Below the pieces are notes generated by a model. That model had not been told where the DNA came from. It did not search any database and was given only the letters and a program-made list of their open reading frames with translations. Shown here one piece after another: positions 9,800 through 13,668 of a DNA stretch of 64,000 nt. Source of the DNA: Burkholderiales bacterium RIFCSPHIGHO2_12_FULL_63_20 (GTDB lineage: Bacteria; Pseudomonadota; Gammaproteobacteria; Burkholderiales; Burkholderiaceae_C); contig MESA01000041.1 of NCBI GenBank assembly GCA_001770775.1, forward strand, positions 1 to 64,000. The letters run 5' to 3'. Both the position numbers and the translations under genes were made by a program. How positions within the stretch are numbered: the stretch's first letter is position 1; each line of letters starts with the position of its first letter.

Positions 9800-10873
9800 A
9801 TGTCCCATTCGAAAGTCTTTGTCCCCCTCGCGTTTGCCACCATGGGGGCGTGTGCCTCTGTGCATGCGCAATCTTCCTTGCAGCTCTATGGCGTGGTGGA
9901 CATCGCCGCCGGATCGTTTCAGAGCAGTGGCACCGAGGGCAGCGCCGCCAATGCCCGTCTGACCAAGGTCGATGGCAATCAGATGGTCACCAGTTTCATC
10001 GGCTTCAAAGGTCTCGAGGATCTGGGCAGCGGTCTGAAAGCTGGCTTTGTCATCGAGTCCTTCCTCCGGCCGGACACCGGTGAATCGGGGCGTTTTGGCT
10101 CGGCAGACCCCTTTTGGTCACGCGCTGCCAACGTGTGGGTGCAGAGCAGCCTGGGCAAGATTACCGTGGGCCGCCAGGGCACCTTGTTGTTCGTGAACAC
10201 CCTGTCGTTCAATCCCTTGAGCTCGGCCTTCGGCTTATCGCCGGCCATTCGTCTGACCTTCGGCTCCCCTTGGGGCAACGACAAGTCAGACTCGGGCTGG
10301 AGCAATGCACTGACCTACCAGACGCCGAATCTGTCCGGGTTCAGCGGTGCCCTTCAGGTGCAGTTCGGGGAGGACGCGAGCAAAAACGAGCGCACCAGCT
10401 ATGCGGTGTCGGCGGGTTATGTGTCCGGTCCTTTTGCCATCGGTGGCGCGTGGCAAACCTTGCGTTCTGCCGAGGCGCCCAAGCCCAGCCTCACGGCAGG
10501 CCAGACGCAAAACTTTGGCATGTTGGGTGTGAGCTATGACGCCGGGTTTGCAAAGTTCTTTGGTCAGTACGGCGCGTTTGCCAACAAGGGGTTTGCGGGT
10601 GCTGCCAGCATCGACACCCGCCTGTATCAGGTCGGGGCAGCCGTGCCAGTGACGAAGAGCGGCAAGCTGTTGGCATCCTATGGGCAGAGCAAGGAAGAGT
10701 CGGCCACAGGCGGATCAACGCTGGATGCGAAGCACGCCATCTTCACGCTGGCCTATGACCACTGGCTGTCCAAGCGTACCGATGTGTATGCCGCCTACAT
10801 GCTCGACGACGAAAAGCGCAGCGGCTTCAAGAAGGGCCACACCTACACTGTGGGCGTGCGTCACGCTTTCTGA
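9800..10873 (+). CDS. Gram-negative outer-membrane porin (porin 3)
   Basis: A 357-residue divergent paralogue of porins 1 and 2. It has a signal peptide (MSHSKVFVPLAFATMGACAS, cleavage near VHA-QSSLQLYG), the FIGFKGLEDLGSGLKAGF strand and terminal VGVRHAF. ATG 9800 has ATCAGGAG upstream; an in-frame Met 14 codons earlier lacks a site and a signal-like start. Codon use is closer to the genome average than that of porin 1, suggesting lower or conditional expression, consistent with the sigma-54-like site and palindrome upstream. No T-run terminator is seen before the convergent metW stop 64 bases on. Confidence 0.93.
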   Translation: MSHSKVFVPLAFATMGACASVHAQSSLQLYGVVDIAAGSFQSSGTEGSAANARLTKVDGNQMVTSFIGFKGLEDLGSGLKAGFVIESFLRPDTGESGRFGSADPFWSRAANVWVQSSLGKITVGRQGTLLFVNTLSFNPLSSAFGLSPAIRLTFGSPWGNDKSDSGWSNALTYQTPNLSGFSGALQVQFGEDASKNERTSYAVSAGYVSGPFAIGGAWQTLRSAEAPKPSLTAGQTQNFGMLGVSYDAGFAKFFGQYGAFANKGFAGAASIDTRLYQVGAAVPVTKSGKLLASYGQSKEESATGGSTLDAKHAIFTLAYDHWLSKRTDVYAAYMLDDEKRSGFKKGHTYTVGVRHAF

Positions 10874-10937
10874 TGCACGGTGTGCGTGAGTGCAGCAGGG
10901 TGCGGCGCTCACACGCGCGGTTCAGTGGGCCGCTTGC

Positions 10938-11522
10938 TCAGCGGCGCTCGAACTTGAACACCGCCTTGCTGGCCATCAGGTTCGGCCAGCGGGTCACGAT
11001 CTCACCCTCGTGCACACCGAATGAGTCGAGGATGCGCAGGCCATTCTGCTCGGCCAGCACTTCGAAGTCGGCAAACGTCGCCACGCGGATGTTGGGCGTG
11101 TCGTACCACTGGTAGGGCAGGCTGCGCGTCACCGGCATGCGGCCGCGCAGCACACTCAGGCGGTGCGGCCAGTGCGCAAAATTTGGGAAGCTGACGATGC
11201 CCTGTTTGCCGACGCGGGCGGTCTCGCGCAGCATGTCCACCGTGTTGCGCAGGTGTTGCAGGGTGTCGAGTTGCAGCACCACGTCGAAGCTGTTGTCCTC
11301 GAACAGGCTCAGGCCTTCTTCCAGGTTGCGCTGGATGACGTTGACGCCGCGCTGCACGCATTGCATCACCTTGGCATCGTCCAGCTCGATCCCGTAGCCC
11401 GTGCATTGGCGGGCGTCGCGCAGGTGCGCCAGCAGGGCGCCATTGCCGCAGCCCAGGTCCAGCACGCGCGAGCCCGGTGGCACCAGTTGCGCGATCACGT
11501 CATGCACATCGTGTTGGCTCAT
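10938..11522 (-). CDS. metW: methionine biosynthesis protein MetW
   Basis: This 194-residue class I methyltransferase-fold protein has the SAM-binding loop VLDLGCGNGALL near residues 21-32. MetW is encoded with MetX in many proteobacteria and is needed for full homoserine acyltransferase activity in several of them; its own enzymatic activity is not settled. ATG 11522 is chosen because GAGGGAAGAG lies 4 bases before it; a GTG five codons earlier overlaps the metX stop and is an alternative. It begins 11 bases after the metX stop, so the two form an operon controlled by the SAM-II leader upstream of metX. Confidence 0.93.
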   Translation of the reverse strand: MSQHDVHDVIAQLVPPGSRVLDLGCGNGALLAHLRDARQCTGYGIELDDAKVMQCVQRGVNVIQRNLEEGLSLFEDNSFDVVLQLDTLQHLRNTVDMLRETARVGKQGIVSFPNFAHWPHRLSVLRGRMPVTRSLPYQWYDTPNIRVATFADFEVLAEQNGLRILDSFGVHEGEIVTRWPNLMASKAVFKFERR

Positions 11523-11533
11523 GGTCTCTTCCC

Positions 11534-12745
11534 TCACACCGAGACCCTCAGGGGCTGGCCCTGCGAGGTGGTCAATGGCGACTGTGCTGACTGCAGCTCC
11601 TGCGCAATCCGCTCGAAGTACGCGCGCACCACGCCGTGGTAACGCGGATCGTCCAGCAGGAAAGCGTCGTGCCCATGGGGGGCGTCGATCTCGGCGTAGC
11701 TCACGTCGTGGCGGTTGTCGACCAAGGCCTTGACGATCTCGCGTGAACGGGCGGGCGAGAAGCGCCAGTCGGTGGTGAAGCTGATGACCAGGAACTTGGC
11801 CAGGGCCTTGCCCATGGCAGCAGCCAAGTCGCCGCCGTGCAAGCGGGCCGGGTCGAAATAGTCGAGCGCGCGGGTGATCAGCAGGTAGGTGTTGGCGTCA
11901 AAGTAGTCGCTGAACTTGTCGCCCTGGTAGCGCAGGTAGCTCTCCACCTGGAACTCGATGTCCTGGGTGCTGTAGTTGGGCGCATCGCCCAGCGTGCGTC
12001 CCACGAGCTCGCGGCCGAACTTCTCTTCCATCACGTCGTCGGACAGGTAGGTGATGTGGCCGATCATGCGCGCCACGCGCAGGCCGCGCCGGGGCACCAC
12101 GCCGTGCGCGTAGAAGTGGCCCTGGTGGAAGTCGGGGTCGGTGACGATGGCCTGGCGGGCCACTTCATTGAAGGCGATGTTCTGTGCCGACAGGTTGGGG
12201 GCGGTGGCCACGGCCACGCAGTGGCGCACGCGCTGCGGGTGTTGCAGTGTCCAGCTCAGGGCCTGCATGCCCCCCAGGCTGCCGCCCAGCACGGCGGCCA
12301 GTTGACTGATGCCGAGTTGGTCGAGCAAGCGGGCCTGGGCATTGACCCAGTCTTCCACGGTCACGACTGGAAAGTCGGCGCCATAAGGCTGGCCGGTGTC
12401 CGGGTTGGTGTGCATCGGCCCGGTCGAGCCAAAGCACGATCCCGGGTTGTTGATGCCGATGACGAAAAACCGTTTGGTGTCCAGGGGCTTGCCCGGGCCA
12501 ATCAGGTTGTCCCACCAGCCTTCGCTCTTGGGCAGGGGGTGGCCCTGCGCGTCGGCGTGGACGCCGGCGACGTGGTGCGAGGCGTTGAGCGCGTGGCACA
12601 CCAGCACGGCGTTGCTGCGGTCGGCGTTGAGCTGCCCGTAGGTCTCGTAGACCAGAGTGTAGTCCTTGAGCACCGCGCCGCTTTGCAGGGGCAGCGGCGC
12701 CTCAAAGTGCATGGAAGCAGGGGTGACAACCCCGAGAGAAGACAT
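11534..12745 (-). CDS. metX: homoserine O-acyltransferase MetX
   Basis: The 403-residue alpha/beta-hydrolase acylates homoserine, the committed step of methionine synthesis. The nucleophile Ser156 is in GGSLGGMQ; the conserved [14 protein letters not shown] segment is at about 97-110, and the Asp and His of the triad lie in the C-terminal third ([10 protein letters not shown]). Whether the donor is acetyl- or succinyl-CoA cannot be decided by eye, as proteobacterial MetX enzymes include both. Start 12745 ([10 protein letters not shown]) is preferred over Met codons up to 15 residues upstream that read into the leader. The leader carries a SAM-II aptamer and a terminator, so excess SAM should reduce metX-metW transcription. 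Confidence 0.95.
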
Positions 12746-12769
12746 GACGCTACGATGTTCAGAACAAAG

Positions 12770-12803
12770 AAAAAACCGGCCTCGCATCAAAGCAGGGGCC
12801 GGT
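12770..12803 (-). terminator. intrinsic terminator in the metX leader (riboswitch expression platform)
   Basis: On the minus strand ACCGGCC and GGCCGGT pair perfectly around a 15-base loop and are followed by TTTTTC. It lies between the SAM-II aptamer (8 bases away) and the metX start codon (25 bases away), so it can only act as a conditional terminator inside the metX transcript. Confidence 0.8.
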
Positions 12804-12810
12804 GAGCAGC

Positions 12811-12863
12811 GCCCTCTTTAGCGGAATTTTTTGAGCGCCCGCAATCCGGACAAATCGGCGCTA
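12811..12863 (-). promoter_or_regulatory. SAM-II riboswitch aptamer upstream of metX
   Basis: On the minus strand, P1 arms AGCGCC and GGCGCT (12862-12857 and 12839-12834) pair perfectly. The loop GATTTGTCCGGATTGC matches the SAM-II loop seen in the solved metX aptamer (GATTTAACCGTATTGC) at 13 of 16 positions. After an A-rich linker comes GCTAAAGAGGG, matching the conserved 3' pseudoknot strand GCTAAAAAGGG. A TACACT box at 12877-12872 could serve as -10 and place the transcript start directly before P1, but no good -35 is visible. SAM binding should favour the downstream terminator and switch off metX-metW. Confidence 0.87.
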
Positions 12864-12901
12864 TGAACCCAAGTGTAGCGCCAAACCGGCGCGCTGGGGT
12901 A

Positions 12902-13522
12902 TCAGGCGGCAGGGGGCGCCGTGTCGGTGAAGCTGGGGCGCTGCATCAGTTTGGCGTAGAGCTTGTCGAGGTTGGGGTAGGTGGTGCGCCAGTCGATGTC
13001 TGCGAAGCGGAAATCCAGGTAACCCAAAGCGCAACCCACGGAGATGTCGGCCAGGCTGTGATGGGTGCCGGTGCACCAGGGCTTGTCGCCCAGGCCTTGG
13101 CTGAAGGCCTTCAGGCACTGGTGGATTTTGTCGCGCTGCCGCTCGATCCAGGCGGGGCTGCGTTGCGCATCGGTGCGGCCTGTCCAGGTTTGCTCCATGC
13201 GCGCCAGCACGGCAGCATCGAGCAGGCCGTCGGCGAGCGCTTCCCAGGTGCGCACTTCCACGCGCTCGCGCCCGCCCAGGGGGATGAGCTTGCCCACTGG
13301 CGACAGGGTGTCCACGTACTCGACGATCACGCGCGAGTCGAAAACGGCTTCGCCGCCGTCCATGACCAGACAGGGGACTTTGCCCAGCGGGTTGGCTTCG
13401 GCAATGCGGGTGTCGGTCGACCAGACGTCTTCCAGCTCGAACTTGTAGTCGAGCTTTTTTTCAGCCAGCACGATCCGGACCTTGCGGACGAAGGGGCTGG
13501 TCAGGGATCCGATCAGTTTCAT
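12902..13522 (-). CDS. glutathione S-transferase family protein
   Basis: A 206-residue GST with thioredoxin-like N-terminal domain (MKLIGSLTSPFVRKVRIVLAEK) and all-alpha C-terminal domain (about 85-206). The N-terminal SPFVRK segment supplies the likely catalytic Ser, and the NPLGKVPCL and DSRVIVEYVD motifs form the glutathione site. This pattern resembles the YibF-like group; the substrate is unknown. It lies upstream of metX on the same strand, 156 bases away, but the leader between them carries its own regulatory elements, so metX need not depend on it. Confidence 0.9.
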   Translation of the reverse strand: MKLIGSLTSPFVRKVRIVLAEKKLDYKFELEDVWSTDTRIAEANPLGKVPCLVMDGGEAVFDSRVIVEYVDTLSPVGKLIPLGGRERVEVRTWEALADGLLDAAVLARMEQTWTGRTDAQRSPAWIERQRDKIHQCLKAFSQGLGDKPWCTGTHHSLADISVGCALGYLDFRFADIDWRTTYPNLDKLYAKLMQRPSFTDTAPPAA

Positions 13523-13668
13523 GGGGTTGGATGAGGTGGCGTTGCGGACATTTTATCGGGCTGTCTCGAACCGGGAAGAGTGCAGGGACAGTATGCCGGG
13601 TCTGGCCCCCAACAGAGGGAGTGGTGCATCACAGCTTGCATCACCCGGGTCAGCGCTGGGGTGCTGGC

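Follow-up and report, generated by a model that had tools for sequence, protein, structure and literature searches.

A SAM-II riboswitch with a termination hairpin as the probable control of metX-metW in a Burkholderiales bacterium, and a candidate related RNA before metK

The control of metX and metW was analysed in a 64,000-nucleotide stretch of DNA from Burkholderiales bacterium RIFCSPHIGHO2_12_FULL_63_20 (contig MESA01000041.1, positions 1 to 64,000), referred to here as the window. On its sequence the leader of metX-metW is a genuine riboswitch of the SAM-II type, equipped with a termination hairpin; it is an ordinary representative of an established class, and its binding of S-adenosylmethionine (SAM) is carried over from the family. 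The leader probably serves as a transcriptional OFF switch for both genes, a reading to which a probability of about 0.75 was given. The match to the family, the conservation of the terminator, co-evolution between the antiterminator strands and the formation of the antiterminator ahead of the terminator were computed here, and the effect of SAM on the pseudoknot helix P2 is, like SAM binding itself, adopted from the family. Window coordinates are used throughout, and the switch and its target genes all lie on the minus strand.

The SAM-II aptamer that an earlier note had read from the sequence was borne out by a covariance search with the Rfam model RF00521; the absence of a significant match, which the note had named as refuting it, did not occur. 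The model matched the leader from end to end (12871-12797) with a score of 42.4 bits against a gathering score of 36, at an E-value of 3.4e-6 for the 64-kb window. RF00521 was the only Rfam family above its own cut-off in the 64 kb, and the metX leader was its sole match in the 3.69 Mb genome. A beta-proteobacterial model (R1), trained on 45 family sequences that included the window's, scored 71.3 bits at 12862-12813. The perfect six-pair stem P1 of the note was found complete (AGCGCC at 12862-12857 with GGCGCT at 12839-12834), and in the covariation set of 45 family sequences (45 of 48 representatives; a further set used 38 of 47) 97.8% of the P1 cells were paired, with both-sided changes at three of the six pairs. 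The strands of P2b were complementary and, by the selection of the sequences, invariant, while P2a was paired in 65.6% of cells with one pair showing a both-sided change. The 13 of 16 loop bases given in the note as identical to the crystallised metX aptamer agree with what we take to be the sequence of that aptamer. The pocket bases of the three base triples (G8, U11, U12, U20, U21, C23, G42, A45 and A46), as described for the 2QWY structure in the text of PMC3764141, were all present in the window by alignment. In the relatives these bases were required by the search expression, and their invariance there is uninformative.

At an E-value of 0.001 RF00521 was found in 33 of 42 genomes of the genus (28 above the cut-off), in 169 of 299 genomes of the family (70 above) and in 137 of 300 genomes of the order (52 above). 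R1 matched 134 of 150 family genomes and 125 of the 133 good ones, a partly circular result in which some matches span the P1 hairpin alone (positions 2-29). Nine of 271 loci contained no match to the aptamer expression; the remaining 262 gave 274 aptamers because some were in tandem. Among the matches listed, exact matches to the aptamer hairpin pattern occurred in Variovorax, Ramlibacter, Limnohabitans, Rubrivivax, Herminiimonas, Nitrosospira, Novimethylophilus and others. The host is itself a beta-proteobacterium (order Burkholderiales), which amends the alphaproteobacterial setting given in the note.

That the nine genus genomes lacking an RF00521 match had lost the switch was considered and rejected. 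In eight of them metX is preceded by an element with an extended loop L1, in which 42-52 nucleotides (nt) separate GATTTG from ATTGC compared to 5 in the window, making the loop 37-47 nt longer; in the ninth (G022, 75% complete) no metX was found. One further genome with the extended form, found by RF00521, has 39 nt between the two motifs. These L1-extended metX leaders (loci L273-L280 and L007, 39-52 nt) lie mostly below the Rfam cut-off, and with laxer Rfam filters L280 gave 35.8, L276 24.8 and L277 22.7 bits and L273 gave no match. When folded, the inserts were no more stable than their shuffles (z -1.65 to +0.37), leaving an extra hairpin unsupported. A pattern scan for the insert in 399 family genomes gave 69 matches; among 30 loci examined the element was present in three genomes, all of the window's genus, and the matches beyond those 30 were judged from the matched letters alone.

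A chance or decayed look-alike without function would fit a bit score only 6 bits above the cut-off and generic scans that were unremarkable. This explanation is nevertheless already contradicted by conservation, as the element is kept before metX in the genus by RF00521 or, in 8 of the other 9 genomes, in extended form; the score of the family-trained model, with the window in its training set, points the same way, and the explanation is regarded as highly improbable.

The terminator was assessed as a hairpin of -7 kcal/mol or lower that precedes a U tract and lies no more than 130 nt from the GCTAA (aptamer) strand. Such a hairpin was found in 143 of 173 leaders with metX and in 206 of all 274 leaders, compared to 116 of 548 dinucleotide shuffles of all 274. 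A later leader set contained it in 68 of 77 leaders overall and in 41 of the 49 with metX, and within the window's genus it was present in 29 of 31. In a generic consensus scan of 10800-13600 terminator-like sites numbered 2, compared to 2.1 in shuffles, and there were no promoter-like sites; the terminator is placed beyond chance because it is conserved across the leaders, and the terminator read in the note is upheld by the same counts.

The comparative tests support, at the level of sequence, an antiterminator formed by the 3' strand of P2 (UAAAGAGGGCGCUG) with the 5' arm and loop of the terminator. In the window strand X (UAAAGAGGG-C-GCUG) and strand Y (CGGCCCCU-G-CUUUG) are predicted to form 13 pairs with two single-base bulges, giving a hairpin of -14.1 kcal/mol compared to -15.9 kcal/mol for the terminator and including the CUAAAG bases of the SAM pocket. 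The note had suggested a GGGC-GCCC antiterminator, of which the core of GGG with CCC was retained; the helix was too small, and it is the enlarged form that the tests support.

The pairing of each leader's own X and Y strands was compared with that of Y strands permuted among the leaders over 20,000 permutations. For 44 representatives of 135 usable leaders the native mean was -10.25 and the permuted mean -8.49 (standard deviation (sd) 0.35), giving z -5.1 and 0/20,000, while a control of X with the terminator 3' arm gave z -0.1. After thinning on the whole leader z was -4.2 (1/20,000, 24 representatives) and then -2.6 (143/20,000, 9 representatives). Held-out leaders, from which 3 of 80 loci were left out, gave z -2.7 (107/20,000, 25 representatives of 59) with controls of -0.3 and +1.7. 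The X-Y duplex of the window, at -15.7, was among the two strongest of the 44, and pairing was kept through sequence change as GGACGCC/GGCGTCC (L229), GGATGCC/GGCGTCC (L039) and CAGGG/CCCUG (L029). Stepwise folding of the transcript, performed without SAM or pseudoknots, placed the antiterminator in the minimum free energy (MFE) structure at 72-84 nt and the terminator at 88 nt; in this model completion of the antiterminator would precede closure of the terminator by about 8 nt of transcript.

Several observations weigh against the X-Y antiterminator. The control strand 5' of GCTAA gave z -2.4 with Y (165/20,000) in the first set, although +1.7 in the held-out set, and letter-shuffled Y strands gave a mean z of just -1.0 with 9 of 44 under the 5th percentile. 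The test has no power at 3 independent leaders, and the permutations ignore the remaining relatedness. Finally, the terminated RNA has, in its MFE structure without a pseudoknot (-35.3), the P1 5' strand paired with X, and its terminator forms in the absence of SAM. The GGGCGCU of P1 (12839-12833) is repeated just after the aptamer strand (12813-12807), in most of the genus. With GGGCGCU contained in both P1 and X, pairing of the P1 5' strand with X can free the terminator, and termination could therefore leak at low SAM; the pairing is taken as a leak because P1 forms first by itself.

In the proposed mechanism the RNA would start a few bases before P1, a position suggested by a conserved -10-like box. 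The bases TA.A.T were invariant at the candidate -10 position in a 17-leader alignment (A1), and a -10-like box 5' of P1 was visible in most of 62 leaders inspected; upstream of the candidate box a -35 element was not recognisable, and a sigma-70 scan of 10800-13600 gave 0 promoter-like sites. With SAM present the P1 loop and the GCUAAAGAGG strand would form pseudoknot P2 and occupy X, whereupon the terminator hairpin would form and a leader RNA of approximately 95 nt would be released. With SAM absent X would pair with Y in the 5' arm and loop of the terminator, the terminator would close too late and metX-metW would be transcribed.

The terminator could instead be largely constitutive, with the leader mainly a source of small RNA and SAM affecting read-through little, as discussed for metA of S. 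meliloti. In the account of Scheuer et al. 2022 (PMC9373788) the terminator of that gene holds down expression in both media, and an antiterminator was not predictable for it. The P1-X alternative, which permits the terminator without SAM in the pseudoknot-free MFE structure, would suit this explanation. In the window's clade, however, an antiterminator could be predicted that has co-evolved with the aptamer strand, and a constitutive terminator is considered unlikely.

Translation might also, or instead, be controlled through pairing of X with Z, the sequence just before the metX start codon, either because the terminator is looped out and the Shine-Dalgarno (SD)-like AAAGAG of the aptamer is laid beside the AUG, or because the start region is hidden by the X-Z helix. 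The metX gene of the window is without an SD of its own, and the helix GGCGCUGC-GUAGCGUC abuts the AUG in both the MFE and centroid structures of the read-through RNA. X fitted the 16 nt before the metX start with z -5.3 (0/20,000, 57 representatives, 32 leaders being left out) compared to -0.6 to +1.0 for four control strands, and z in the held-out set was -2.2. Under stricter thinning, however, z was -3.5 and then -1.5, the fit was not significant outside the family, and a trade-off test between the two SDs came out against bridging. The aptamer of S. meliloti metA is described as holding an SD that serves a start codon at a distance of 74 nt (PMC9373788). If a helix of the X-Z kind looped out the terminator, action over this distance would be accounted for, making the first variant a possible basis of this 'translation at a distance'. 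Support for the X-Z helix is weaker than for X-Y, and it is kept as a rather doubtful lead.

The attenuator proposed here, with X-Y as its antiterminator, belongs to a locus that reads on the minus strand as the end of a glutathione S-transferase-like gene, the TACACT box, the SAM-II aptamer, the intrinsic terminator, metX and metW (Table 1). The 8 bases claimed between the aptamer strand and the terminator were found, the stem beginning at 12803, and metX follows the terminator as claimed, with 24 bases between the end of the T run (12770) and the ATG (12745-12743). The best model for MetX was the NCBIfam homoserine O-succinyltransferase NF047916 (658 bits, cut-off 560), an older acetyl model remaining below its own cut-off, and MetW matched TIGR02081 (249 bits, cut-off 189.5), in agreement with the gene names in the note. 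The terminator loop contains an ATG in frame with metX (12785-12787). A metX start at this codon was rejected, as the ATG is present in only 5 of 31 genus leaders and is without an SD at normal spacing.

Table 1. Features of the metX-metW locus in window coordinates.
Feature	Position	Strand	Basis or remark
Glutathione S-transferase-like gene	12902-13522	-	5' of the leader
Candidate -10 box TACACT	12872..12877	-	read from sequence; 9 bases 5' of P1
SAM-II (RF00521, SAM_alpha) match	12797..12871	-	42.4 bits, E 3.4e-6, model 1-79 of 79
P1 5' strand AGCGCC	12857..12862	-	sequence; six pairs with 3' strand
L1 GAUUUG, major-groove triplex bases (G8, U11, U12, 2QWY numbering)	12851..12856	-	triples as described in PMC3764141, mapped by alignment
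Pseudoknot P2 5' side CCGGAUUGC	12841..12849	-	sequence
P1 3' strand GGCGCU	12834..12839	-	sequence, covariation
P2 3' side GCUAAAGAGGG (aptamer strand GCTAAAGAGGG), also SD-like, -6.3 kcal/mol to anti-SD	12812..12822	-	
Predicted antiterminator 5' strand X, UAAAGAGGG-C-GCUG	12807..12820	-	pairs with 12801-12788 in fold, -14.1 kcal/mol
Predicted antiterminator 3' strand Y, CGGCCCCU-G-CUUUG	12788..12801	-	inside terminator 5' arm and loop
Terminator 5' arm ACCGGCC	12797..12803	-	hairpin -15.9 kcal/mol in fold; conserved
Terminator 3' arm GGCCGGU	12775..12781	-	sequence, fold
U tract UUUUUU, first U closing the stem	12770..12775	-	sequence
Z, GUAGCGUC, adjoins start codon; possible partner of GGCGCUGC at 12813-12806	12746..12753	-	tentative
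metX (homoserine O-acyltransferase; NCBIfam model for O-succinyl type)	11534..12745	-	NF047916, 658 bits
metW, 4-base overlap with metX stop	10938..11537	-	TIGR02081, 249 bits

In beta-proteobacteria, including 10 of 11 Comamonadaceae, an RNA element preceding metXW or metZ was described by Leyn et al. 2014 (PMC4239095) under the name metXZ, as new and with its ligand unknown. Its features in that text are a pseudoknot with a terminator downstream of it and an antiterminator put forward as speculation, with pairing drawn between regions 1-4 and 2-6, and in the same description SAM_alpha is reported only in Rhizobiales and Rhodobacterales. The leaders studied here resemble metXZ in preceding metXW or, in Methylophilales and Nitrosospira, metZ, in their pseudoknot and terminator and in their occurrence in Comamonadaceae. 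An O-succinylhomoserine sulfhydrylase gene (metZ) was found downstream in Novimethylophilus (L066), where the leader is above the RF00521 cut-off, and in Nitrosospira (L078), which is not among the RF00521 matches listed. Because the genes, taxa and layout are the same, and because in the window the leader from promoter to metX is filled by SAM-II and the terminator, metXZ is very probably SAM-II that mostly falls below the Rfam cut-off, an identity drawn from context and layout against the text description rather than base by base. SAM-II was likely missed in beta-proteobacteria because only 70 of the 169 matching family genomes pass that cut-off.

When compared with RF00521 as a whole, the window element shares the aptamer sequence, P1, the P2 strands, the gene context, a single-copy leader and a downstream terminator, and differs in being beta-proteobacterial, in an aptamer loop shorter than the Rfam consensus and in having X common to P2 and the antiterminator. 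The metZ and metA leaders of S. meliloti, as presented in PMC9373788, likewise combine SAM-II with a terminator and carry an SD-like GAGG in the aptamer strand far 5' of the start used; they belong to an alpha-proteobacterium and precede other genes, with no antiterminator predictable for metA. Enlarged loops like the L1-extended form in the window's relatives are known from the long-loop SAM-II (RF01726), which a table in PMC2864571 lists for Bacteroidetes and marine sequences, whereas the window itself is short-looped; RF01726 did not match five L1-extended leaders scanned with Rfam. SAM-V has the same pocket fold as SAM-II by crystal structure, according to the descriptions in PMC6061858 and PMC2704228, but is translational and occurs in other taxa, and its model RF01826 was unmatched here.

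SAM-II-like elements in which an extra hairpin-like insert separates P1 from the P2 3' strand were seen in part of L403-L410, in L100 (Limnohabitans) and in L095 and L080 (Legionellaceae), and the gene after the L095 aptamer is metN-like (376.7 bits, below the model cut-off of 499.7). Outside the Proteobacteria the SAM-II hairpin pattern occurred in metagenome-assembled genomes of Acidimicrobiia (L105 and L124) and Planctomycetota (L117), where mis-binning of contigs is possible; in L105 the pattern precedes a gene for betaine-homocysteine methyltransferase (378 bits, cut-off 338). In L435 (1290-1425) a weak match to RF02424 (Bp2_287, a predicted Burkholderia small RNA; 33 bits, cut-off 70) lay on the strand opposite a SAM-II match, and this family may be the antisense of a SAM-II leader.

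A second SAM-II-like RNA was found outside the window, before metK. R1 gave a second set of matches at approximately 40-46 bits, several of them before metK (L396, L397 and L400), and the window's own genome carries an RNA of this type at C1:151321-151375 (G000; L415 from 1501 onward) with 30.6 bits and an E-value of 2.7e-5, followed by a gene reaching 590 bits against the metK model (cut-off 309). RNAs of this type were also found in part of L419-L446 and in L477-L505. The consensus was NNNGCC-GAGUUAA-n-GACAACUUGC-GG(G)GCNNN-AAAU-GCUAAAGCGUC, and its core pattern was present in 31 of 250 order genomes, compared to 2 matches for the reversed pattern. The covariation sample comprised 47 distinct sequences, of which 25 directly precede metK; in it the second outer pair of P1 was formed in 47/47, with four pair types. 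P1 cells were paired in 121/141 compared to 85.2 (sd 4.2) with shuffled 3' strands, and P2a cells in 130/141 compared to 118.8 (sd 1.7). The SAM-II pocket bases are kept, partly by the selection of sequences. A sequence model (R2) matched 29 of 29 further genus metK leaders (one split match) and 14 of 30 order metK loci (own included, two split matches), these 30 being the best MetK matches of 60 genomes and hence biased to relatives.

Rfam searches of the metK-type RNA gave no family at E 0.5 (7 loci) or E 1 (13 loci), 20 loci in total. An SD was present in 62 of 62 metK leaders and a terminator-like hairpin, by a loose rule, in 15. The tail after the metK aptamer co-evolves with the SD region (z -3.9, 1/20,000, 26 representatives) with controls of +0.8 to +1.3. 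The SD in all leaders, the few terminators and the tail-SD co-evolution together suggest, on sequence comparison, translational control of metK. A search for metK control in beta-proteobacteria is described as unsuccessful in the text of PMC4239095, and no description of a metK RNA in these bacteria was found in the literature searched, the scope for which its novelty holds.

Tandem aptamers approximately 110-170 nt apart, a classical SAM-II followed by the metK type, were observed in L137, L156, L171, L190, L211, L435-L437 and, in Halomonas, L089 and L135. Aptamers of the metK type also precede small reading frames whose proteins start with MHGLA/MHELA or MYDC/MFDC (L394, L395, L398, L417, L418, L431, L432 and L435-L437). 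In L431 and L432 the MYDC/MFDC frame is followed by a transporter that is presumably MATE-like.

The results give a beta-proteobacterial RNA element published without a ligand a likely one, SAM, and, by comparison of leaders, they favour an antiterminator that draws on the SAM-binding strand itself, a step that the text of a 2007 survey called not yet experimentally established. The metK lead, a candidate second SAM-type RNA, is the more novel part. Together the two could form a two-RNA SAM circuit in this genome, in which metXZ would be SAM-II and metK would be under a further RNA, as yet undescribed, that shares the fold, shows covariation in P1 and P2a and pairs through its tail with the metK SD, a proposal whose chances of being right or wrong appear evenly balanced. 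If true, homoserine activation would be switched off by SAM, or by a relative such as S-adenosylhomocysteine, through transcription attenuation, and the synthesis of SAM at the level of translation, with a separate variant of one pocket serving each.
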